Shown: piece after piece, positions 2,873 through 59,331 of the stretch | Layout: every line of letters starts with the position of its first letter | Position numbering within the stretch: position 1 is the first letter of the stretch | Source: Microbacterium salitolerans | Lineage (GTDB): Bacteria; Actinomycetota; Actinomycetes; Actinomycetales; Microbacteriaceae | Assembly (NCBI RefSeq): GCF_019720895.1 | Contig: NZ_JAHKSH010000003.1 | Span: forward strand, 434,001-498,000 | Reading direction: 5' to 3' | DNA length: 64,000 bases | Position numbers and translations under genes: made by a program | The notes under the pieces: model-generated | Database searches by the model: none | Told to the model about the DNA's origin: nothing | Seen by the model: only the letters and a program-made list of their open reading frames with translations

Positions 2873-2972
2873 AGGGTCGGGAGCGTCACCGGAGCGCGCG
2901 CCACGGGCGCGCGGCACGGCTCGAGTGACGCCCGCGACCCTTCGCGGCGCGGGGAAGGGTCACGGGCGTCAC
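2871..2972. terminator. Three-arm palindromic bidirectional terminator
   Basis: Arms 2925-2943 and 2954-2972 form a 19-bp stem with one mismatch and a 10-nt loop. A further copy of the right-arm sequence at 2871-2889 can also pair with 2925-2943 (two mismatches), so two mutually exclusive hairpins are possible. The structure lies between the convergent M29 and YhgE genes and probably ends transcription from both sides; there is no T-run. Confidence 0.65.
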
Positions 2973-44322: not shown

Positions 44323-44598
44323 GTGTCCCACAACACGCCGTCACGGCGCACGGGTGACGGCGTGTTGCGGGACACGAGCGCAGGCTCCCTACCGGTGCGT
44401 GTCCCAGGACATGCCGTCACGCCTGGAGGGTGACGGCGTGTTGTGGGACACGGTGTGGACCCTTGCCCGCTCATGTCCCGAGACATGCCGTCATGGCGCA
44501 CGGGTGACGGCGTGTCGTGGGACACGGTGAGGTCCTTGCGGGTGCGTGTCCCAGGACATGCCGTCACGCCTGGAGAGTGACGGCGTGTCGTGGGACAC
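44323..44598. repeat. Array of four 53-bp palindromic elements (copies A-D)
   Basis: Copies at 44323-44375, 44399-44451, 44473-44525 and 44546-44598 each have a 21-bp left arm beginning (G/A)TGTCCC and ending GCCGTCA, an 11-nt loop, and a 21-bp right arm beginning TGACGGCGTGT and ending GGGACAC. They are spaced 73-76 bp start to start with 20-23 bp between. They fill the 291-bp gap between the PEBP gene and the convergent DUF559 gene, where they may also act as terminators. Confidence 0.92.
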
Positions 44599-44603
44599 GG
44601 CCG

Positions 44604-45515
44604 TCAGCCGAACCAGCCGCGTTCGCGCAGCGCATCGCGCACCATCGCCGGGCCGCGTGGCGGATCGCCCCGCAGGTGATGATTGAGGATCCGCACCAGC
44701 ACCCAGCCTTCCGCGCGAACGGCATCCCACCGGTCGGCATCGCGCTCGAACTGCGCCGTGTCGAACGCATGCTGCCGACCGTCGTACTCGACGGCGACGC
44801 GCCACCGGCGGTACGCCATGTCGAATCGTGCGACGAACGTGCCCCGGTGATCGACCAGCTCCCAGTTGAGTTCGGGCTCCGGCAGGCCGAATCGCGCGAG
44901 CGCGAGCCGGAGCTTCGTCTCGCGAGCCGACTCCGACCCGTCGCGTGCCGACTGCAGGGCGCTGCGCAGGATCCGCCCCCGCATATCCCCCATGTCCTCG
45001 ATCTCACTCGACAGCTCCTCCCACGTGCACAGCGGCGACGCGCGGGCGAGCAGCGCGTCAGCCGCCGCGACGAGGTCATCGTGGGGCCAGCGATAGCCCA
45101 CCTGACGCCACGCCCGCACCGGAGACTCGACGAGGAATCCCGAACGGCATGGCTCCGCCGCGAGTTCGCGGCGCTGCAGCCGATGACCATGGATCCCCGC
45201 CGTGCGCGGCTGCGAGTGCGGTCGATGCGCGGACACGTGGAGGGCGAGCGGATCCGCACTCGGCGGGAGCGGGGATCCGTGCAGGGCGAGCGCGGTGTCG
45301 TGGCTGAAGAACTGCCATGGCCGCAGCAGCGGAGCGAGCTCCGCGCAGGCGTCGATCAGCGTCGTCGGTGGGGTCCTGCGCGTGCGGACCGCGTGAAACG
45401 GTCGGCGCAGGTCGCTCGCGCGGAGCCGCTTGTCCGGCACGCAGAACTCCCGAGATTCGGCGACGGTGAACGCTCGCGCACGGAGGGCCGCAGGGAGTGG
45501 TGCCGGTTCGTACAT
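44604..45515 (-). CDS. DUF559 endonuclease-like protein with AbiEi-type N-terminal region
   Basis: The 303-residue protein has an N-terminal segment (about 1-190) resembling actinobacterial AbiEi/antitoxin-type proteins: TVAESREFCVPDKRLRASDLRRPFHAVRT, FFSHDTALALHGSPLP, VESPVRAWRQVG. It ends with a DUF559 domain of the Vsr/PD-(D/E)XK kind, with MAYRRWRVAVEYDGRQHAFDTAQFERDADRWDAVRAEGWVLVRI. The EYDGRQH motif supplies the expected acidic and His residues. ATG 45513-45515 (MYEPAPLP) is chosen; the open frame continues far upstream but through palindrome copies and low-complexity sequence. It is sandwiched between two palindrome arrays. Its biological role is unknown. Confidence 0.75.
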   Translation of the reverse strand: MYEPAPLPAALRARAFTVAESREFCVPDKRLRASDLRRPFHAVRTRRTPPTTLIDACAELAPLLRPWQFFSHDTALALHGSPLPPSADPLALHVSAHRPHSQPRTAGIHGHRLQRRELAAEPCRSGFLVESPVRAWRQVGYRWPHDDLVAAADALLARASPLCTWEELSSEIEDMGDMRGRILRSALQSARDGSESARETKLRLALARFGLPEPELNWELVDHRGTFVARFDMAYRRWRVAVEYDGRQHAFDTAQFERDADRWDAVRAEGWVLVRILNHHLRGDPPRGPAMVRDALRERGWFG

Positions 45516-45660
45516 GTCGGCCAGGGTGGCGGAACGGCGCGGCCAACGATCGCGTCGTTCGCGGCGATTGTGGACGGATCCGCCGATCTCGCCACCTGTG
45601 GACACGCTGACGCCACCCGACACGCAGAGCGGCCCTTGCCCCGCGACAAGCCCACGCCCC

Positions 45661-45713
45661 GTGTCCCAGGACACGCCGTCATCCCGCTGGCGTGACGGCG
45701 TGTCCTGGGACAC
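45661..45713. repeat. 53-bp palindromic element, copy E (perfect)
   Basis: Arms 45661-45681 and 45693-45713 are perfectly complementary over 21 bp, with an 11-nt loop. This is the best preserved of the eight copies in the window. Confidence 0.92.
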
Positions 45714-45734
45714 GGAAGGGGGCACTGCCTGACC

Positions 45735-45787
45735 GTGTCCCACGACACGCCGTTTCGGCACTCCGATGACGGCATGTTGTGGGACAT
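45735..45787. repeat. 53-bp palindromic element, copy F
   Basis: Same geometry as copy E and 74 bp from it start to start. The inner end of the left arm has changed from TCA to TTT and the right arm ends GGGACAT. Confidence 0.88.
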
Positions 45788-45793
45788 GGTCCG

Positions 45794-45821
45794 CCCAGGA
45801 CCCAGGACTCAGGACCCAGGA
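45794..45821. repeat. Four tandem 7-bp units
   Basis: CCCAGGA, CCCAGGA, CTCAGGA, CCCAGGA follow directly after palindrome copy F. This is a simple tandem repeat likely to vary in copy number. Confidence 0.7.
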
Positions 45822-46007
45822 ACCGTTGTCGCGGGGCGCGGCGGCGATCTCGCCCCGTAACACCGACGCAATCTCCATGCCGGAGGATGCCCAGGCAGGG
45901 CACGGAAGAATGGACCGCTTCGCGCTTCCGGCGCGGATCCGCATCATCCATCCCCGACCCGCACCCCCCCTCAGCCTGGCGTGTGGTGAAACTGGAGAAC
46001 ACAGCGC

Positions 46008-47096
46008 ATGAACAAGAGCAGCACCTTCGCGCGTCGCGGCCTCACGGCCGGCGCAGCCCTCGCCGCCGGAGCTCTCGCGCTCACGGCCTGCGGCGGATCC
46101 GGTGACGAGGACTCCGCCGACGGCGATTCGGCGAGCCACGGCGACATCTCCGTGCAGCAGTCATGGATCAAGAACGAGGAGTTCGCGGGGGAGTTCTACG
46201 CCACGAAGTACGGCTACTACGAGGAGGCCGGCTTCGACAGCGTCGACCTCATCGACGGCCCCGATACGGGGGTGGCCGGTCTGCTCTCGGGCCAGATCGA
46301 CATCGCGATCAACGACGCGATCGTCACGGGCGCGGCGATCGCGAACGAGGACGCCCCGCTCACGATCGTCGGCGCGACGTTCCAGAAGAGCCCCTTCACG
46401 ATCCTGTCTCTCGCCGACGGCGGCGACATCGAGACCGTCGATGATCTGAAGGGCAAGAAGATCGGCGTGCAGGACTCGAACGCCGCGCTGTTCCAGGCGC
46501 TGCTCGATGCGAACGGGATCGACGAGTCCGAGCTCGAGGTCGTGCCGGTGCAGTTCGATCCGTCGCCCCTGACCAACGGCGAAGTCGATGGATTCTTCGC
46601 CTACACGACCAACGAGGCGCTCACGGTCGAGCTCGCGGGCAACGAGATCACGAACCTCACTTTCGCCGACAACGGGATGCCCTTCGTCGTCGAGACCTTC
46701 ACGGTGACCGACCAGTTCCTCGCCGAGAACCGCGATCTCGTCAAGGACTTCCTCATCGCCGAGATCAAGGGCTGGGCGCAGGTCCTGAACGATCCCATGA
46801 CAGCGGCCGAACTGGTCGTCGACGAGTTCGGCACCGACCTCGACCCCGACAAGACGCAGGCGGGCATGCAGGCACAGCTCGACCTCATCGTCAGTCGGGA
46901 CACCGAGGCGAACGGCCTGTTCACGGTGACCGACGCGCTGCAGCGGCAGACGATCGAGAGCCTGGCGACCGCGGGCCAGGACGTCGCGGCCGAGGAACTC
47001 TTCGACCTCTCTCTCCTCGACGAGATCTACGAGGACCACCCCGAGCTCGTCGACTATGCGACGCTCGGTGGCGACCTCGCGGCGGCCGCGGAGTAG
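46008..47096 (+). CDS. NMT1/SsuA-type substrate-binding lipoprotein
   Basis: The 362-residue protein has a lipoprotein signal ending LTAC (C28) and the NMT1/THI5-like fold: [65 protein letters not shown] and [12 protein letters not shown]. Such proteins bind pyrimidine precursors, sulfonates, nitrate or aromatic acids. It is followed by one ATPase and two permease genes (46008-49600). The substrate is unknown; riboflavin, pyrimidine or purine-related compounds fit the neighbourhood. Confidence 0.9.
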
Positions 47097-47101
47097 CGAG
47101 C

Positions 47102-47920
47102 GTGGCAGACGCGAATCGGGCCGGTGCCCCGGGCGACCGGGGCACCGGCCTCCACATCGAGGGACTCAGCAAGGTCTTCCGCTCGGGCCGCCGCCAGACG
47201 GTCGCCCTGAAGGACGCCGACCTCCACACGGAGCAGGGCACGTTCCTCTCGCTTCTCGGCCCGTCGGGCTGCGGAAAATCGACCATCCTTCGGATCCTCG
47301 CGGGGCTCGAGGAGCCGACGAGCGGCACGACGCGCGTCGACGGGCACACGCCCGAGGAGCTGAGAAAGGCCGGCAAGCTGGGCATCGCGTTCCAGGATTC
47401 GGCGCTCCTGCCGTGGCGCAGCGTGCGAGCGAACATCCAGCTGCCGTTCGAGGTTGCGGGCTCGCCCGTCGACCGCGCGTACGTCTCCGAGATGATCGAC
47501 CTCGTGGGGCTCGCGGGCTTCGAGAAGGCCAAGCCCGCGCAGCTGTCGGGCGGCATGCGCCAGCGCGTGTCGATCGCGCGTTCGCTCATCATGAGGCCCG
47601 AGGTCCTGCTCTTCGACGAGCCTTTCGGCGCACTCGACGACATGACGCGCCAGCGCCTCAACCTCGAGCTGCTGCGCATCTGGTCGTCGAAGCCGGCGAC
47701 GACGCTGCTCGTGACGCACGGCATCGCGGAGGCGATCTTCCTCAGTGACAAGGTCGCCGTCATGAGCCCGCGTCCCGGACGCATCACGGCCGTCATCGAC
47801 ATCGATCTGCCGCGGCCGCGCACTCGAGAGATGATGCGGACCCCGGAGTTCCACGCGTACGTCGACGAAGCGTCCGATCTGCTGTTCGGATCCGACGGCC
47901 CCACCGACGATGACTTCTGA
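47102..47920 (+). CDS. NrtD/SsuB-type ABC transporter ATP-binding protein
   Basis: The 272-residue ATPase has GPSGCGKST (Walker A), [12 protein letters not shown] (Q-loop of this branch), [15 protein letters not shown] and [15 protein letters not shown]. It pairs with the NMT1-type lipoprotein encoded 5 bp upstream and two permeases downstream. The GTG start is the only one that keeps the short gap and the N-terminal [10 protein letters not shown]. It overlaps the next gene by 11 bp. Confidence 0.92.
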
Positions 47921-48737
47921 GCGTCCCGCACGGCTCCCCGGGTGGGCGACGTCGGTGCTGGGCGGCGTCGCCATCATCGCGTTCTGGTTCCTCGCCGCGT
48001 GGCTCTGGCGTCTCGGCGTCGCGGCGGATCCGGAGGCCCCCGCGAGCAGGGCCGACGCGATTCCGTACCCGCAGGACGTCGTGGCGTCGGTGACGTCGGC
48101 CGGCGCGGAGTACTTCGCCCGTCACTTCAGCGTCACTCTCGCTGAGGCCGGGATCGGATACCTCGTCGGCAACGTGCTCGCGCTGGCGTTCGCGTCGCTC
48201 GTGCTCGTGATCCCCGCGATCGAGGGGATCGTCGTGCAGATCGCGACGATCACGTACTGCATCCCGATCGTGGCGATGGGGGCGGTGCTCATCGTCATGA
48301 CGCCGATCCCCGAGGCGGGGGAGCCGGCGCTCACGCCGATCATCCTCGCGGGCCTCAGCGTGTTCTTCACGACGGTCGTCGGCGCCCTGCTCGGTCTGAA
48401 GGCGGCGGACAGAGGCGCGCTCGATGTCGTCGCGGTGTACGGCGGATCCCGGTTCACGCAGCTCCGCAAGGTGCGGGTCGTCGCGGCGCTCCCTGCGATC
48501 CTCAATGCTCTGCAGATCGCCGTGCCCGCCGCGTTCCTCGGGGCCGTGCTCGGCGAGTTCTTCGGGAAGGTCGAGACGGGTGTCGGGCGCGCGATGATGA
48601 TCGCGCAGACGAACGTCGACGCGCCGCTCGTGTGGGCGCTCGCCCTCACCTCGGGTATCGCCGCGCTCGCGGGCTACGGCGTCCTGGGCCTCATCTCGCG
48701 CGCCGCGGCACCCTGGTCGAGGGGAGCGGCGGCATGA
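47910..48737 (+). CDS. SsuC-type ABC transporter permease 1
   Basis: The 275-residue protein has six predicted helices. It has the BPD_transp_1 cytoplasmic loop [46 protein letters not shown], with the EAA-type contact region. It overlaps the ATPase gene by 11 bp and the second permease by 4 bp. Two different permeases in one operon suggest a heterodimeric channel. Confidence 0.9.
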
Positions 48738-49600
48738 CGCACGTCTCGATGTCAGATGCGCCGGGCGGCGCCCTCGAGCGCGAGATGCGCCGCGAGCGCA
48801 CGCGCGCGATGTGGCTCGCCCTCGGCCGCCGCCTCGCGCTGTTCCTCCTCATGATCGCCGTCGTGCTCGTGATGTGGCAGGCGCTGCTGGTCGTCTTCGG
48901 CGTCAGCGACTACGTCGGCAAGGGGCCGCTCGACGTCTGGCAGTGGCTCGTGACCGACGACGAGGCGGCGGAGAACCGGGCCCTCATCTTCGGGCGCCTC
49001 GGCATCACGCTCGGGCACGCGTTCCTCGGATTCGTCGCCGGGCTCGTGCTCGCGCTCCTCGTCGCGCTGCTGTTCCAGCTGTCGCGGGGCATCGAGGCGG
49101 CGCTCATGCCGGTCGCGATGCTGCTGCGATCCGTCCCGCTCGTCGCGATGGCGCCCGTCATCACGTTGATCTTCGGGCGGTCGGTTCTCGGCGTCGCCGT
49201 CATCGGCGCGATCGTCGTGCTGTTCCCGGCGCTCGTGAACATCGTGTTCGGCCTGCGCTCGGCGTCGCCGCAGATGAACGATCTCATCGCGGTGTACGGC
49301 GGCGGCACGGTCACGCAGCTCGTCAAGGTCGCCCTGCCGGCCTCGTTGCCCGCGTTCTTCGCGGCCGTGCGGATCTCCGTGCCCGGCGCCTTCACGGGAG
49401 CCCTCCTCGCGGAGTGGCTCGCGACGGGCGACGGCATCGGCGGATCCCTGTCCGGCGCCATCTCGCAGGCGAAGTTCACGGAGGTGTGGGCGGCGGTCGC
49501 CGTCACGACGGCCGTCGCGCTCGTGCTCTACAACGTCGTGCAGATCCTCGAGGACGTCGTCCTCGCGCGCATGGGCATGCGCGCCCAGCGCGGGGTCTGA
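48734..49600 (+). CDS. SsuC-type ABC transporter permease 2
   Basis: The 288-residue protein has a cytoplasmic charged N terminus, six predicted helices and the contact loop LIAVYGGGTVTQLVKVALPASLPAFFAAVRISVPGAFTGALLAEWL. It parallels permease 1 and shares the YGG motif, so the two arose by duplication and probably form the heterodimer. It ends at a 15-bp perfect terminator. Confidence 0.9.
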   Translation: MTHVSMSDAPGGALEREMRRERTRAMWLALGRRLALFLLMIAVVLVMWQALLVVFGVSDYVGKGPLDVWQWLVTDDEAAENRALIFGRLGITLGHAFLGFVAGLVLALLVALLFQLSRGIEAALMPVAMLLRSVPLVAMAPVITLIFGRSVLGVAVIGAIVVLFPALVNIVFGLRSASPQMNDLIAVYGGGTVTQLVKVALPASLPAFFAAVRISVPGAFTGALLAEWLATGDGIGGSLSGAISQAKFTEVWAAVAVTTAVALVLYNVVQILEDVVLARMGMRAQRGV

Positions 49601-49606
49601 CACGCG

Positions 49607-49650
49607 GCGGCGGCCTCGCGGATCCGGGGAGGGGCCCGCGAGGCCGCCGC
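49607..49650. terminator. Bidirectional 15-bp terminator
   Basis: GCGGCGGCCTCGCGG (49607-49621) pairs perfectly with 49636-49650 over a 14-nt loop, between the importer operon and the convergent SDR gene. Confidence 0.75.
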
Positions 49651-49660
49651 GCGATCGAGG

Positions 49661-50413
49661 TCAGACGGCCGTGTAGCCGCCGTCGATCAGGTAGTACGCG
49701 CCCGTGACGAACGAGGCGTCGTCGCTGAGCAGGAAGCGCACGACCTTCGCGATCTCGTCGGAGCGGCCGAGGCGGCCGAGGGGGTGCTTCGCGACGAGGC
49801 CCTCCTTCACCTCAGCGGGAGCGCCCGCGAGGAGCGGGGTGTCGATGTAGCCGGGGCCGACCGCGTTGATGCGCAGGCCCTGAGCGCCGTACTCGGCGGC
49901 CGCGTTCTTCGTGATGCCGACGACCGCGTGCTTCGTCGCCGTGTACGCGCCGTTGCCGACAGCCGCGACGGTGCCGTGGATCGACGCCATGTTGACGATC
50001 GCGCCCTCCTCGGCGCCGGCCTCGAGGATCGCCGGCACCTGGTAGCGCATGCCGTACGCGACGCCGTTGAGGTTGATGCCGACGACCGTGTCCCACGCGT
50101 CGATGGCCATCTCGCCGATCGGCGCGCTCGCGCCGCCGATGCCCGCGTTGTTGAAGGCGTAGTTCAGCTTGCCGTAGGTCTCCTTCGCGAACGCGACGGC
50201 CTTCTCGCTGTCCTCCGCGACGGCCGTGTTGCCCTCGAACGCCGCGGCCTCGCCACCGGCTGCCGAGATCTCGTCGACGACGCGCTGCGCCGCATCGAGC
50301 TTGATGTCCGTGACGACGACCTTGACGCCGAGCGTCGCGAGCTCCTTCGCCGTCGCCTCGCCGATGCCGGATCCGCCGCCCGTGACGAGCGCGACCTTGT
50401 TGTCGAAAGCCAT
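49661..50413 (-). CDS. SDR-family NAD(P)-dependent oxidoreductase
   Basis: The 250-residue classical short-chain dehydrogenase has TGGGSGIG (residues 11-18), NNAG, the Ser of NMASIHG, YTATK (catalytic Tyr-x3-Lys) and a C-terminal FVTGAYYLIDGGYTAV. D36 in VVTDIK at the end of strand 2 suggests NAD preference. The substrate is unknown. GGAGG lies just before the ATG. It is convergent with the NMT1-type importer and divergent from the purine permease. Confidence 0.92.
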   Translation of the reverse strand: MAFDNKVALVTGGGSGIGEATAKELATLGVKVVVTDIKLDAAQRVVDEISAAGGEAAAFEGNTAVAEDSEKAVAFAKETYGKLNYAFNNAGIGGASAPIGEMAIDAWDTVVGINLNGVAYGMRYQVPAILEAGAEEGAIVNMASIHGTVAAVGNGAYTATKHAVVGITKNAAAEYGAQGLRINAVGPGYIDTPLLAGAPAEVKEGLVAKHPLGRLGRSDEIAKVVRFLLSDDASFVTGAYYLIDGGYTAV

Positions 50414-50578
50414 ATCTGCCTCCAGAGAGAATCGATGATTCCATCCGTGTGAATGGAAACTCCTGTCAGACTACGCCTGCATGCGCGACGTGGGTCCGTT
50501 CGTCGCTTCCCGTTCACCGAGAGGAGACCCGCCCGCGCTCCCTCCTTTATCGCAGGCCGCTGTGACACGATCTTCCGC

Positions 50579-52027
50579 ATGAGCGCGGCCCCAGCCACCA
50601 CGAGAAATCCGATCGATCGCTTCTTCCAGATCTCGGAACGCGGATCCACCATCGGCACCGAGATCCGAGGCGGCCTCGTCACCTTCTTCGCGATGGCGTA
50701 CATCGTCGTCCTCAACCCGCTGATCCTCGGCACGACGCCCGACGGCACCGGTCAGCTGCTGGGCGGCGGATCCGCGGGAGACGCCCCGAACCTCGCCATG
50801 ATCGCGTCGGCGACGGCGCTCATCGCGGGCGTCCTGTCGATCCTCCTGGGTGTGATCGCGAACTTCCCGATGGCGATGGCGGCGGGCCTCGGCCTCAACG
50901 CCGTCGTCGCGTTCTCGATCGCCGGCATCGAGGGAGTCACCTGGGCCGACGCGATGGGCGTCGTCGTGATCGAGGGCGTCATCATCCTCATCCTCGTGCT
51001 GACGGGATTCCGAGCCGCGGTCTTCAAGGCCGTCCCGACCGCGCTCAAGACCGCGATCGGCGTCGGCATCGGCCTGTTCATCACCCTCATCGGGCTCGGC
51101 AACGCGGGCTTCATCACGGGCGACGGCGCCACGATCCTCGCGCTCGGCAACCTCGGCACGTTCCCGATCCTCGTGTTCGTCGTGGGCCTCGTGCTCACGA
51201 TCGTGCTGCACGTGCGGCGGGTGCGGGGTGCGCTGCTCATCTCGATTCTCGTGGCGACCGTGCTCGCGGTGGTGATCGAGAACACGCTGCACCTCGGCGC
51301 GCGCTCCGCGGACAACCCCGGTGGATTCAACTCCCCGCCGGCGTTCACGGGCGTCTTCGCCATGCCCGACTTCTCGCTGATCGGGCAGTTCAACCTGCTC
51401 GGATCCGTGCAGAACATCGGCGCCGTCACGCTCATCCTGCTCGTCTTCTCGCTGCTGCTCGCCGACTTCTTCGACACGATGGGCACGATGGTCGCGGTCG
51501 GCGGCGAGGCGCACCTGCTCGACGCGGAGGGCAACCCGCCGCGGGCGAATCGGATCCTGCTCGTCGACTCGCTCGGCGCGATCTTCGGCGGCATGGGATC
51601 CGTCTCCTCGAACACGGCCTTCGTGGAGTCGACGTCAGGCGTCGCGGAGGGAGCGCGCACGGGCCTCGCGTCGATCGTGACGGGCGTCGCGTTCCTGCTG
51701 GCGACGCTGTTCGCGCCGCTCGTCGCGCTCGTGCCCTACGAGGCGGCGGCTCCGGCGCTCGTCCTCGTCGGCTTCCTCATGATGACCCAGATCTCGGGCA
51801 TCGACTGGAAGAACGTCGACGTCGGGATCCCCGCGTTCCTCACGATCGCCGTCATGCCGTTCACATACTCGATCTCGGACGGCATCGGCGCAGGCTTCGT
51901 CGCCTTCGTCATCGTGAAGATCGCGCGCGGGAAGGCCCGCGAGGTGCACTGGCTGATGTGGCTCGTGTCCGCACTGTTCGTCGTCTACTTCCTCGTCGAG
52001 CCGATCCGCGCCTGGATCGGGGCGTAG
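50579..52027 (+). CDS. AzgA/PbuG-type purine permease (NCS2 family)
   Basis: The 482-residue membrane protein has the AzgA-like signatures: RFFQISERGSTIGTEIRGGLVTFFAMAYIVVLNPLIL at the start, ANFPMAMAAGLGLNAVVAFS, LLADFFDTMGTMVAVGGEAHLLD, and a late GSVSSNTAFVESTSGVAEGARTGL. This family imports adenine, guanine and hypoxanthine with protons. It is next to the xanthine dehydrogenase operon and can supply hypoxanthine for oxidation to urate. ATG 50579 is the first start that gives the family N terminus. Confidence 0.92.
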   Translation: MSAAPATTRNPIDRFFQISERGSTIGTEIRGGLVTFFAMAYIVVLNPLILGTTPDGTGQLLGGGSAGDAPNLAMIASATALIAGVLSILLGVIANFPMAMAAGLGLNAVVAFSIAGIEGVTWADAMGVVVIEGVIILILVLTGFRAAVFKAVPTALKTAIGVGIGLFITLIGLGNAGFITGDGATILALGNLGTFPILVFVVGLVLTIVLHVRRVRGALLISILVATVLAVVIENTLHLGARSADNPGGFNSPPAFTGVFAMPDFSLIGQFNLLGSVQNIGAVTLILLVFSLLLADFFDTMGTMVAVGGEAHLLDAEGNPPRANRILLVDSLGAIFGGMGSVSSNTAFVESTSGVAEGARTGLASIVTGVAFLLATLFAPLVALVPYEAAAPALVLVGFLMMTQISGIDWKNVDVGIPAFLTIAVMPFTYSISDGIGAGFVAFVIVKIARGKAREVHWLMWLVSALFVVYFLVEPIRAWIGA

Positions 52028-52054
52028 GAGCTCTCCGCTGCGCCGGTCGTCCCC

Positions 52055-54805
52055 TCAGCTTCCGATGTGCGGTGACTGCGCGAGGCGCCAGACGCGGTCG
52101 CGCGTGAAGGGCTGCTCGAAGGGGCGGCGGCCGAGGGCGCGGGCGATGGCGTTGCCGATCGCGGGCGCGACGGGGTTGTATGGGCTCTCGCTCATCGATT
52201 TCGCGCCGAAGGGGCCGAGCGCGTCGTCGGTCTCGGCGAACGAGACGTGCACGTCGGGAACATCCGCGAACTGCGGCACGCGATAGGTGCGGAACGCGGG
52301 GTTCTGCACGACGCCGTCCTCGACCTGGATCTCCTCGTAGAGCGCGCCGCCCAGCCCCTGCGCGACGCCGCCCTCGATCTGGCCGCGGCACTGCGCGGGA
52401 TTCAGGACGACACCCGCGTCTGCGGCGTGCACCTGGCGCAGGACGCGCACGGTTCCGGTCTCGGGATCCACGGCGACGCGTGCGGCGTGCACATTGAACG
52501 CGAGCGAGCGCCTCTCGCCCGGCTCCCACGACGTCTCCGTCACGTCCTCCGAGGGCGCGGATCCTCTCGTCCTCTCGCGCAGCGCGAGCGCCGCCCGATG
52601 CAGCGCCTTGCCGGCGACCGTGATGCCGGCCGACGCGAACGCGCCCGAGTCGTGCTCGACGAGGTCCGTGTCGGCGTGACGGATGCGCACGCGCGAGGCC
52701 GACACGTCGAACACGCTCGCGACGATCTGCCGCTGCACCGTCGTCGTGCCGTTGCCGAACTCGGCGGTGCCGGTGCGGGCGGTGAAGGATCCGTCGGGGT
52801 GCGCCGTGACGCTCGCATGCGCCACATGGCCGAACGGCGCCATCGTCGCGATCATGGCGGCGGCGACGCCCTCGCCGACGAGCCAGCCGCCCGGGGCCTC
52901 GACGTCGTCGGGCCCCGCGAGCGCGGCCTCGGCCTGATCGAGGCACTGGTCGAGCCCGTAGGAGCCCCACAGCGTCTCGGCGTCGATCTCGCCCGAGGCG
53001 TGCAGGATCGGATCGCCGTCGCGCACGGCGTTGCGGCGGCGCAGCGCGAACGGATCGAGGCCGAGCTGCTCGGCGACCATGTCGAGCGCCGATTCGACCG
53101 CGAGGACCACCTGCCCGAGACCGTACCCGCGGAAGGCGCCTGAGGGCGGGTTGTTCGTGTAGACCGCCTCGGCGTCGATGCGCACGGCGGGGACGCGGTA
53201 GAGCGAGACCGACTCGGCGAGCGCGTGATGCATGACGCCGGCGGCATGGTTGCCGTAGGCGCCCGTATCGCTGAGCAGGTCGATCGCGAGGCCCGTGAGA
53301 TGGCCGGTCGCATCGGCGCCCACCCGCACGCGCGTGCGGATCGGATGCCGGAAGGCCGAGCGCACGAACTCGTCCGCGCGGCTGAACTCGTACGCGACGG
53401 GGCGCCCGGTGCGCAGGACCGCCAGCGCGACGAGATCCTCCGTGAAGATCTCCTGCTTGCCGCCGAAGCCGCCGCCGACGCGCGGCGCGAACACACGGAT
53501 CCCATCCCTCGGCAGCGAGAAGATGTGGGCGAGCTCGTCGCGCGTGAGGAACGGCACCTGCGTCGACGAGCGGATGACGAGGCGTCCGTCCTCCATCCAG
53601 CCGACGGATCCGTGGGTCTCCAGCTGTGCGTGGATCGTGCGACTCGTCTGCCACGTCTCCTCGACCACGACGGCGGACCCCGCGAGTGCGGCCTCGATGT
53701 CGCCGCGGCCCGTGTGCAGGTCGGCGACGACGTTGCGGCTCGCGTCGGCGACTCGGTCCTCCGGGGTGCGGTCGGGGTGGATCCGCGCGGCGTCGCCGGA
53801 GCGCGCCTCCTCGGGATCGAAGACGGCGGGGAGCACCTCGTAGTCGACCTCGATGAGGCGGCAGGCGGCCTCCGCGGCGGCCGCCGTCTCGGCGACGACG
53901 GCCGCGACGCGCTGGCCGACGTGCCGCACGACGTCGTCGAGCAGGCGGGTGTCGTCGGCGTCGTCGGTGCGGTGCTCGTGCCGGGCTGTCGAGTAGCGCA
54001 CATCGGGCACGTCGTGGTGCGTGAAGATCGCGACGACGCCGGGGAGCCGCGCGGCGTGATCCGTGCGGATGCCGCGGATCCGCGCGTGCGCATGCGGGGA
54101 TCCGACGACTCGCAGCGTGAGCGCGCCCGGCGGGATCTCGTCGAAGGTGTACGGCTCGAGCCCCTGCACGATCCGTCGGGCGGCCTCGGGCACCGTCGAG
54201 GTGCCGACGGATCCGGTGCGCTCCGTGTCCCAGGACACGCCGTCATCCCGTCGCCGTGACGGCGTGTTGTGGGACATGGGTGGGGGTGGGGAGGTCACCG
54301 TGTCCCGAGACACGCCGTCATCCGGGCGTCGAGACGGCGTGTTGTGGGACATGGGTCTGCCCGTCTCGTGCACCGCCCCCAGCGTCGACTCGATCGCCTC
54401 GCGGATCGGACGATAGCCCGTGCAGCGGCAGAGACTGCCCTTCATGCGGCGGTCGAGGTCGTGGGCATCGGCGGTCGCGAGGCACGATGCCGTCACCGCC
54501 ATGCCCGGCGTGCAGAATCCGCACTGGAACCCGAAGCCCTCCGCGAGGGCCTCCTGCACGGGGTGCAGGTCGTCGCCCGGAGCGAGACCTGCGGCGGTCG
54601 TGACCGAGGACCCCTCCATCCGGACCGCCGGAATCAGACACGAGTGCACGGCCGCGCCGTCGACGATGACGGCGCACGCTCCGCAGTCGCCGGCGTCGCA
54701 GCCCTTCTTCACGTCGCTGTGGCCGTGCTCGCGCAGGAGGGTGCGCAGACACTGCCCCGGACGTGGATCCGCCTCGACCGATCGCCCGTTGACGTCGAAC
54801 CTCAT
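52055..54805 (-). CDS. Xanthine dehydrogenase, fused 2Fe-2S and molybdopterin-binding subunit with palindrome-encoded linker
   Basis: The 916-residue protein has two 2Fe-2S clusters at the N terminus (C36, C41, C44, C56 and C95, C98, C126, C128). The molybdenum-binding domains run from about residue 203 to the end (GSPHAHARIRG, APRVGGGFGGKQE, PPSGAFRGYGLGQ, FGAKSMSESPYN). It oxidises a purine, most likely hypoxanthine and xanthine to urate. Residues 152-169 and 177-194 are two near-identical 18-residue stretches (MSHNTPSRR...DT) encoded by palindromic elements H and G, forming an artificial interdomain linker. It overlaps the FAD subunit gene by 4 bp. Confidence 0.93.
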   Translation of the reverse strand: MRFDVNGRSVEADPRPGQCLRTLLREHGHSDVKKGCDAGDCGACAVIVDGAAVHSCLIPAVRMEGSSVTTAAGLAPGDDLHPVQEALAEGFGFQCGFCTPGMAVTASCLATADAHDLDRRMKGSLCRCTGYRPIREAIESTLGAVHETGRPMSHNTPSRRPDDGVSRDTVTSPPPPMSHNTPSRRRDDGVSWDTERTGSVGTSTVPEAARRIVQGLEPYTFDEIPPGALTLRVVGSPHAHARIRGIRTDHAARLPGVVAIFTHHDVPDVRYSTARHEHRTDDADDTRLLDDVVRHVGQRVAAVVAETAAAAEAACRLIEVDYEVLPAVFDPEEARSGDAARIHPDRTPEDRVADASRNVVADLHTGRGDIEAALAGSAVVVEETWQTSRTIHAQLETHGSVGWMEDGRLVIRSSTQVPFLTRDELAHIFSLPRDGIRVFAPRVGGGFGGKQEIFTEDLVALAVLRTGRPVAYEFSRADEFVRSAFRHPIRTRVRVGADATGHLTGLAIDLLSDTGAYGNHAAGVMHHALAESVSLYRVPAVRIDAEAVYTNNPPSGAFRGYGLGQVVLAVESALDMVAEQLGLDPFALRRRNAVRDGDPILHASGEIDAETLWGSYGLDQCLDQAEAALAGPDDVEAPGGWLVGEGVAAAMIATMAPFGHVAHASVTAHPDGSFTARTGTAEFGNGTTTVQRQIVASVFDVSASRVRIRHADTDLVEHDSGAFASAGITVAGKALHRAALALRERTRGSAPSEDVTETSWEPGERRSLAFNVHAARVAVDPETGTVRVLRQVHAADAGVVLNPAQCRGQIEGGVAQGLGGALYEEIQVEDGVVQNPAFRTYRVPQFADVPDVHVSFAETDDALGPFGAKSMSESPYNPVAPAIGNAIARALGRRPFEQPFTRDRVWRLAQSPHIGS
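54225..54277. repeat. 53-bp palindromic element, copy G (inside the xanthine dehydrogenase gene)
   Basis: Left arm 54225-54245, loop 54246-54256, right arm 54257-54277. Read on the minus strand from ATG 54277-54275 it encodes residues 177-194 of the dehydrogenase. Confidence 0.92.
54300..54352. repeat. 53-bp palindromic element, copy H (inside the xanthine dehydrogenase gene)
   Basis: Left arm 54300-54320, loop 54321-54331, right arm 54332-54352. It is 75 bp from copy G, a multiple of three, so both are read in the same frame; it encodes residues 152-169. Confidence 0.92.
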
Positions 54806-57741: not shown

Positions 57742-59331
57742 ATGAAGGTTCGTTCTGCTCTGGTCGCCCTGTGCGCGATCGGCGCCCTCGCCCTCACGGC
57801 GGGCGCCGTCGCCCCGGCGAAGAAGCCCGCAGACCCGCCCCCGCTGACGGAAGCCGCGTGCGCCGACCTCGTCGGCCACGACATCTCCGCCCGCGACATC
57901 GATCTGCCGACGGCGGGCGCTTCGGTCGAGACCGCGACCTGGACCGGCGACGCGTGCGAGGTCACCGGATGGATCCGGGCGGTCACCGCGCCGCAGGACA
58001 TGCAGTTCCAGGTGAACCTCCCGGCCGACTGGAACGGGCGGGCGCTGCAGTTCGGCGGCGGGGGCTTCGACGGATCCCTCGTCACCGCGACGGGCGCGTA
58101 CACGGCCCAGCCCGCCGGCACGGCGACGGCGCTCGAGCAGGGATGGGTCACGGTCGGCAGCGACGGCGGCCATCAGGGCGGTGCGGGCTTCGACGGGTCG
58201 TTCCAGACGGATCCCGAGCTCCTCATGAACTTCGGCCAGTGGTCGGTGAAGAAGGCACATGACGCCGCGTGGGATGTCGTGCGCGCGGCATACGGGTCCG
58301 CGCCCGAGTGGTCGTACTTCATCGGCGGTTCGCAGGGCGGCCACGAGGCGCTCGACGCGGCGGCCCGCTACCCGAAGGACTACGATGGCGTCGTCGCCAA
58401 CTATCCGGCCTACAACGTCACGATGATGCACATCGGCGCCGTCAACTTCCGCGACGCGCTGCTGCTGGACGACGGCGCGGGGTGGATGAGCTCCGCCGAG
58501 GTGCAGACGCTCACCGATGCGGTCTCCGCCGCGTGCGATCCGCTCGACGGCGCGGCGGACGGCATCATCAGCGATGTCGCGAGCTGCGACGCGGCCTTCG
58601 ATCTCGGCTCGGTGCGCTGCGCCGACGGATCCGATGCGGGCGACGACTGCCTGTCGGATGCGCAGATCGCCGCGGTCGAGAAGATGACGACCGACTACGA
58701 CCTCGGCATCGACATCCAGGGCAGCAGCATCTTCGCGAAGAGCGCGCTGCTCGAGGGCGCGCTCTATCAGGGCTTCGCGGGATTCGGATCCGGTCCGCGC
58801 GACCAGGGCCTGCAGTTCCAGGTGCTCGACGCGACGAGTCGCTACGGCGTCGCGGGCGGGGATCCGTCGCACGACACGTACACGTTCGACCCGGCCGACC
58901 ACGAGCAGCGGATCCAGGAGCTCGGCGAGATCATGGACGTCACGAGCGTCGACCTCACGCGCTTCCGCGCGTACGGCGGCAAGGTGATCCTCACGCACGG
59001 CACGATCGACGACTTCATCACCCCGCACAACACCGTCCAGTACTACGAGCGGCTCGAGGAGCGCTTCGGGCACCGCCTCGACGGGTTCCTGAAGTTCTTC
59101 ATGGTGCCCGGGTGGGGCCACGGCCAGGGCGTGTTCGCGGCGCAGTACGACGGCCTGGGGGCCATCACCGACTGGGTCGAGGGCGACGTCGCTCCCGAGG
59201 GCCTCGTCGCAGGCGACGGGAACCCCGGCGCCGATCGCACGCGACCGATGTGCGAGTACCCCGCCTGGCCTGAGTACGCGGGGGAGGGATCCGTCGACGA
59301 CGCCGCGTCGTTCACCTGCGTGACCGAGTGA
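57742..59331 (+). CDS. Secreted tannase/feruloyl esterase-family protein
   Basis: The 529-residue protein has a Sec signal peptide (charged MKVRSALVA, hydrophobic core to about residue 24, then AVAPA) and a tannase-family alpha/beta-hydrolase domain. Triad candidates are S197 in GGSQGG, D423 in GTIDDFITP and H460 in GWGHGQG. The lid carries the calcium-site-like CDPLDGAADGIISD. The family releases phenolic acids such as ferulate or gallate from plant material. The usual CS-D-HC disulfide motif is absent: glycine precedes S197 and follows H460. AGGAG precedes the ATG by 8 nt. The 138 bp upstream show no other clear site. Confidence 0.85.
   Translation: MKVRSALVALCAIGALALTAGAVAPAKKPADPPPLTEAACADLVGHDISARDIDLPTAGASVETATWTGDACEVTGWIRAVTAPQDMQFQVNLPADWNGRALQFGGGGFDGSLVTATGAYTAQPAGTATALEQGWVTVGSDGGHQGGAGFDGSFQTDPELLMNFGQWSVKKAHDAAWDVVRAAYGSAPEWSYFIGGSQGGHEALDAAARYPKDYDGVVANYPAYNVTMMHIGAVNFRDALLLDDGAGWMSSAEVQTLTDAVSAACDPLDGAADGIISDVASCDAAFDLGSVRCADGSDAGDDCLSDAQIAAVEKMTTDYDLGIDIQGSSIFAKSALLEGALYQGFAGFGSGPRDQGLQFQVLDATSRYGVAGGDPSHDTYTFDPADHEQRIQELGEIMDVTSVDLTRFRAYGGKVILTHGTIDDFITPHNTVQYYERLEERFGHRLDGFLKFFMVPGWGHGQGVFAAQYDGLGAITDWVEGDVAPEGLVAGDGNPGADRTRPMCEYPAWPEYAGEGSVDDAASFTCVTE

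Follow-up and report, generated by a model that had tools for sequence, protein, structure and literature searches.

A dispersed family of 53-bp palindromes in Microbacterium salitolerans and a nuclease-like gene as its likely partner

Among dispersed bacterial palindromes, the closest described systems are the repetitive extragenic palindromic (REP) sequences and bacterial interspersed mosaic elements (BIMEs), together with the REP-associated tyrosine transposase (RAYT). Such palindromes are species-specific, occur as singles and in groups, mostly at gene 3' ends, and flank a single-copy nuclease gene. Here we describe a family of 53-bp palindromes in a 64,000-nt stretch of the Microbacterium salitolerans genome (contig NZ_JAHKSH010000003.1, positions 434,001 to 498,000; hereafter, the window), which is like the REP/RAYT system in all these respects. 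The enzyme, on the other hand, is of another kind: the gene between our palindromes codes for a putative Vsr-like nuclease with an AbiEi-like part, whereas a RAYT is an HUH tyrosine enzyme. The stems are 21-22 bp long with an 11-nt centre, compared to 5-13 bp for the REP stems in the available part of PMC3733652; the GTAG tag is absent, and the flanks beyond an outer C and G vary (41 copies). For the CGTC REPs, the available part of the same paper gives stems of 8-9 bp, loops of 4-5 nt, an unpaired CGTC tag and no known mover (PMC3733652). In our family, CGTC is part of the paired arm, in a longer palindrome. The lack of a known mover and insertion inside an open reading frame (ORF) are features shared with both the CGTC REPs and the Rickettsia palindromic elements. 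The 53-bp family would act like REP/RAYT but has neither the tag nor the enzyme, nor does it belong to the CGTC REPs.

On the protein side, the closest systems are the AbiEi / Rv2827c antitoxins and the EDxHD homing endonuclease I-Bth0305I. Rv2827c, as described in the available part of PMC7319586, binds inverted repeats of 23 bp, which come in two pairs and are 13 bp apart within a pair. Our system may resemble these antitoxins in its predicted DNA-binding fold (Foldseek), and the geometry of the target is alike, with two inverted arms (21-23 bp) around a gap of 11-13 bp; unlike theirs, the putative targets are genome-wide and flank the gene to the left and the right, and the protein has a predicted nuclease domain. 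I-Bth0305I has a Vsr-like nuclease domain, as is predicted here, and dimerises on a two-fold target of nearly 60 bp (PMC3943268, available part). The M. salitolerans gene differs in being non-intronic and flanked by palindromes, in its AbiEi-like DNA-binding part and in the unconserved centre of the target. If parts like those of Rv2827c and I-Bth0305I were joined, one molecule per arm of a 21-11-21 target could bring the nuclease domains to its centre. We put at about 0.6 the probability that the palindromes are the two-armed target of their own nuclease, in a mobile system that acts like REP/RAYT with an unrelated enzyme.

The eight copies of the window are located at 44323..44375, 44399..44451, 44473..44525 and 44546..44598 (copies 1 to 4), at 45661..45713 and 45735..45787 (copies 5 and 6) and at 54225..54277 and 54300..54352 (copies 7 and 8). 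Each one is exactly 53 bp with the 21-11-21 geometry, just as an earlier note on this DNA had described them, and none was assigned a strand. All eight were marked by the arm-pattern scan and the covariance model. Copy 5 has perfect arms, and 5 bp separate the end of copy 4 from the nuclease-like gene's stop codon. The scan produced 16 arm-pattern matches in the window, compared to 0.26 expected; 16 matches were reached in none of 100 shuffles. The genome search that the earlier note had proposed was made with covariance model R1, built from the eight window copies. In the whole 3.46-Mb genome (G000), we found 41 strong copies (82 rows with both strands counted, all at E <= 2.9e-10), every one of them 53 bp long, and one further weak copy (E 0.047).

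The copies fall into 24 groups, each with one to four members. The claim of the note that copies never occur alone did not survive this search: 12 of the 24 groups are single copies, and the sole mate in a 13th group is the weak copy. The periodicity of 73-76 bp was kept in 12 of the 18 adjacent pairs (weak copy included), while the remaining spacings were 63, 64, 85, 106, 132 and 146 bp. By contig, 25 strong copies were found on C5, 14 on C10, one each on C18 and C20, and none on the others. A chromosome-domain signal was considered and rejected; the copies are uneven, but no simple origin/terminus pattern was seen by eye in the copies of genome G007 (G000 has dnaA at C10:17.7 kb, G007 at 2.64 Mb).

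The pattern of conservation among the 41 copies was as follows. The base before the copy is C and the base after it is G in 41 of 41, so the conserved unit is in fact 55 bp. Both arms are invariant at positions 3-7, 11, 12 and 15-17 and variable at 1, 8, 9 and 10, and the 11-nt centre varies widely in sequence at constant length. The arm changes had been called often compensatory. We observed that only 1 of the 21 arm pairs was changed on both sides in the eight window copies, and as many were seen in 441 of 500 shuffles. For all 41 copies, no arm pair was clearly above shuffles (the best were pair 9 with 39/500 and pair 10 with 77/500), and pair 9 is unpaired in 15 of the 41. The arms vary without compensation in both sets, which the earlier note itself had listed as an observation that would speak against it. 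An RNA hairpin under selection for pairing was rejected on these counts, because compensation would be expected of a hairpin kept for its pairing. Invariant arms, a free centre of fixed length and no clear covariation would fit two protein sites at a fixed spacing, and the invariant arm positions point to a protein recognizing each arm. An Rfam scan of the window gave nothing at gathering scores. We also considered rapid loop change by cutting in the group at 452490-452690, where the loops differ and the two spacers agree. Since the copies there make a mosaic, conversion accounts for the loop differences equally well, and the idea was dropped.

The gene that is likely to be the partner of the palindromes is situated at 44604..45515 on the minus strand, between copies 1-4 and copies 5-6. 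The earlier note was right that no RAYT is present here and overlooked this gene. It codes for a 303-aa AbiEi/Rv2827c-like and Vsr-like (DUF559) protein. The C-terminal third matches DUF559 with 21.8 bits (Pfam cut-off 20.6), while the match to MTES_1575, named as a Vsr-type restriction endonuclease in the available part of PMC3710099, had 22.9 bits, below the cut-off of 38.2. A profile of 26 homologues matched the PDB entries 3hrl (E 0.0068) and 3r3p, the homing endonuclease I-Bth0305I (E 0.092). In the 26 sequences, S196, E199, D232, E243, G246, H249 and D259 are invariant; E199, D232, H249 and D259 may be the residues E, D, H and D, in this order, of the EDxHD motif. The AlphaFold model of the protein is confident, with a predicted local distance difference (pLDDT) score of 93.7 and a predicted template modeling (pTM) score of 0.89. 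A Foldseek search with this model placed Rv2827c (1zel) at rank 2 (probability 1.00, E 0.0068, TM 0.40) and I-Bth0305I (3r3p) at rank 8 (probability 0.93, E 0.26). The protein is likely a DNA-cutting enzyme with an AbiEi-like DNA-binding part.

A protein search found 30 homologues of the 303-aa protein in 11 genomes. A strong palindrome was present within 600 bp of 26 of the 30 and on both sides of 14; in 13 of these 14 the left and the right palindrome belong to the same family. For comparison, among 127 control genes of similar size from 400 kb of the M. excoecariae genome (G058), 36 had a palindrome on any side, 3 on both sides and 1 with the same family on both. The 13 closest homologues make one clade (support 99/97). 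With a palindrome called at score >= 12 or R1 E <= 0.01, each of the 13 genes in this clade is next to the type palindrome, which 9 of them have on both sides. The more distant homologues L406, L407, L412, L415 and L417 have other palindromes, of an identical family on both sides, and a targeted scan showed that L404 and L410 carry their own palindrome on both sides as well; further distant homologues have a palindrome on one side or none. The M. salitolerans genome yielded four homologues, and each of them has a palindrome family of its own to the left and the right, with near-fixed lengths of 53, 60, 48 and 56 bp. The pairing of gene and palindrome family, as known by position, is repeated and family-specific.

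We also observed that the same nuclease subclade accompanies related palindromes in other species. A second model, R2, was made from the palindromes beside two subclade A genes (its rows usually represent two strands each). Genomes with a subclade A gene had 66 (G009), 58 (G006), 18 (G018) and 8 (G020) R2 rows, compared to 1 in G007, 1 in G012 and 0 in G058, which are without such a gene. The 12 rows in G000 were cross-matches to the window family. G090 had 14 rows, and G062, outside the genomes of the homologue search, had 7. Finally, three homologues with 33-38% identity were found on Arthrobacter plasmids, all with adjacent palindromes, the same on both sides in one case and on one side in the other two. 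Two Arthrobacter palindrome families were tested, and they recur at 4 and at 6+5 places.

Signs of movement were seen in the comparison with M. excoecariae, in which the R1 search found no element of the 53-bp family. The flanks of the 24 groups were compared against 660 kb of this genome. For 12 groups both flanks were found, 20-395 bp apart and with no copy between them. For the group at 58588 one flank is present and for the group at 82960 neither; the flanks of the C18 and C20 copies were unmatched in the fetched 660-kb part. The pair at 82960 lies in an 80-kb stretch (G000:C5:70118-150357) which as a whole is missing at the matching M. excoecariae place. Some of the M. excoecariae gaps that match palindrome sites contain unrelated strong hairpins. 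For example, C1 ~44650-44741 of that genome, which corresponds to G000:C5:546625, has an unrelated hairpin of -83.8 kcal/mol where G000 has palindromes.

The difference from the relative was larger at four pairs of groups, which bracket DNA missing at the matching place. The bracketed segments are one of 18.2 kb, one of 6.5 kb with ATP-binding cassette (ABC) genes of iron-siderophore type (Pfam), one of 6.2 kb with a LacI-type regulator and a sugar ABC operon, and the nuclease-like gene of the window, which is missing there along with its flanking copies. M. excoecariae does have about 11 kb of the 18.2-kb segment at another place, and nearly the whole 6.2-kb segment is present elsewhere in G090. 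These two are therefore displaced segments, and the displacement may have gone in either direction. The palindromes as general brackets of insertions were rejected: in a list of 38 G000-specific insertions longer than 700 bp, which covers C5:1-569000 (C10 was not chained), one is bracketed at both ends. A second bracketed insertion on C5 was recognized only by the adjacency of its flanks, and two more are on C10. The sequence comparisons support the view of these palindromes as an actinobacterial family that is dispersed, resembles REPs and looks mobile.

From these data we infer binding, cutting and nuclease-driven spreading, which could proceed in the following way. Two protein molecules would bind via the AbiEi-like domain, one per arm of 21-22 bp. 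The 11-bp centre, nearly free in sequence, would fix the distance and the helical phase between the bound molecules, so that the Vsr-like nuclease domains might meet and cut near the centre of the palindrome. Repair of the cut would copy palindromes elsewhere and sometimes, with them, the nuclease gene or other DNA between two palindromes.

Several observations weigh against a nuclease-driven system of this kind. The large caveat is that 37 of the 38 listed insertions are not bracketed at both ends. Target-site duplication was not evident at the sites compared with M. excoecariae, where identity is 75-90%. I-Bth0305I is most specific at the centre of its target, which in our family is the free part. 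On the side of the protein, Foldseek had no match at E <= 0.001, the profile matches to 3hrl and 3r3p are weak too, and Foldseek ranks 1 and 3 were T. gondii mitoribosome proteins (root-mean-square deviation 16), which we leave uninterpreted. With respect to the pairing, 4 of the 30 homologues are without a strong palindrome within 600 bp, and left-right palindrome matches occurred across clades too, in 15 of 150 comparisons. Within the clade of 13, L393 and L397 have the palindrome on one side only (L397 meets a contig end), and the second side of L390 and L402 has weak matches only. There were 17 R2 rows in G027 and 7 in G024, where a subclade A gene was not found, and G012 has 55 R1 rows while the palindromes beside its two homologues are different or weak.

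The placement of the groups bears on two other explanations. Genes were called with a simple program based on codon usage, for which nine genes of the window served as the training set; by these calls, the group edge is within 30 bp of a stop codon in 15 of the 24 groups. The settings are 6 convergent, 2 divergent and 15 tandem intergenic, and one group is inside a gene. On C5 (569 kb), 10 of 14 groups are at most 30 bp from a stop, compared to 15.5% of intergenic bases (binomial P 4.4e-6). This bias towards 3' ends could come from where the elements prefer to insert, from their loss at other sites or from a role in termination. Bidirectional terminators or mRNA-end hairpins, spread through their usefulness at gene ends with the nuclease gene as a passenger, would account for the distances from stop codons, for the six groups between convergent genes and for the unrelated strong hairpins in some of the matching M. 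excoecariae gaps. Still, we find this improbable: covariation is not above shuffles, the invariant arm letters go beyond the needs of pairing, copies 7 and 8 are within an ORF, two groups are between divergent genes, and the family-specific tie to nuclease paralogues is left over.

Somewhat less improbable, and in our view still unlikely, is that an AbiEi-like regulator with a nuclease domain uses the palindromes as operator or anchoring sites to control its own and other genes. The nuclease would then serve in defence or in a toxin-antitoxin system and not in mobility, the copies having spread by ordinary recombination. Copies 5 and 6 are indeed upstream of the nuclease gene, and Rv2827c and AbiEi bind inverted repeats of like geometry in their own promoters, according to the available part of PMC7319586. 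An operator role is at odds with the palindromes downstream of nuclease genes, with the copies inside a coding frame and with the position of most groups, including the 10 of 14 on C5, at gene 3' ends and not in promoters.

The ORF that contains copies 7 and 8 is a 916-aa fused oxidoreductase frame at 52055..54805 on the minus strand, with 2Fe-2S and molybdenum-cofactor parts (domains assigned by reading). The two copies sit in its linker, and the reading frame stays open. The closest match of this oxidoreductase is in M. excoecariae (78%), whose linker, read separately, is shorter and has no palindromes. The linker from CTGY to HAHA had 69-135 residues in 60 of the 63 pattern-matched loci of relatives; the pattern had matched artefactually at the other three, and it missed 17 of 80 loci, that of M. 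excoecariae among them. It looks as if the linker tolerates inserted repeats. In Microbacterium sp. W1N (L178), the same linker carries a different motif twice in frame.

Among relatives, R1 matches were found in 20 of 58 genomes overall and in 17 of 35 Microbacterium genomes, several of which had one or two weak rows only. The elements of the relatives have a common ACACGCCG-like core, and in most of those printed the outer arms are species-specific. In two Isoptericola loci (L062 in G042 and L217 in G093), the common core is kept and the stems are longer, with added arms that are complementary within each locus and not the same in the two. A phage or plasmid origin was rejected, with no match of the element in phage or plasmid collections; viral contigs had 1 and 7 matching stretches.

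The earlier note had proposed a mobile family of REP/BIME type or like miniature inverted-repeat transposable elements (MITEs). The dispersed, REP-like character holds, given the 41 copies, the 17 of 35 genomes and the 12 copy-free sites in M. excoecariae, and so do the tandem groups, the species-specific arms and presence or absence among relatives that a classical family of this kind, moved by a lost or missed RAYT or insertion-sequence transposase, would show. Membership in such a family is another matter, and we consider it very improbable. The search for a RAYT, which the note had recommended, found Y1 (HUH) transposase (Y1_Tnp, PF01797) in 0 of 35 Microbacterium genomes, compared to 5 of 14 control genomes. 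A GTAG or CGTC tag is not present, and the phage and plasmid collections were without a match; no search for insertion sequences with these ends was made.

A second palindrome family is associated with nuclease paralogue c of the M. salitolerans genome (G000:C10:561668-562597), which has it on both sides. The family has arms GTGACGC..G.GACC, measures 48 bp in 30 of 38 scan matches (some overlapping) and is grouped like the 53-bp family. It recurs on C5, with groups near 151131-151686, 209712-209918 and 379887-382670, and once in the window, as a single copy at 2925..2972 (no strand). The scan had 2 matches in M. excoecariae, whose own homologue stands closest to paralogue c.

An open-licence literature search, incomplete and partly aimed at the question, found no report tying DUF559 or Vsr-like genes to dispersed palindromes. 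The likely nuclease genes located between differently spelled palindromes point to a small mobile DNA system of a kind not yet described. It is possible, with odds a little short of even, that such minimal mobile systems extend across Micrococcales as AbiEi-Vsr paralogues, with each lineage having its own fixed-length palindrome target and moving the palindrome alone, the nuclease gene between two palindromes, or bracketed operons. With copies of its own palindrome to either side of each paralogue, the target of each nuclease would be readable from sequence. If an AbiEi-Vsr nuclease does move the palindromes, it would be a second enzyme solution to palindrome spread, unrelated to RAYTs, and would give a role to a large group of unassigned DUF559 genes.

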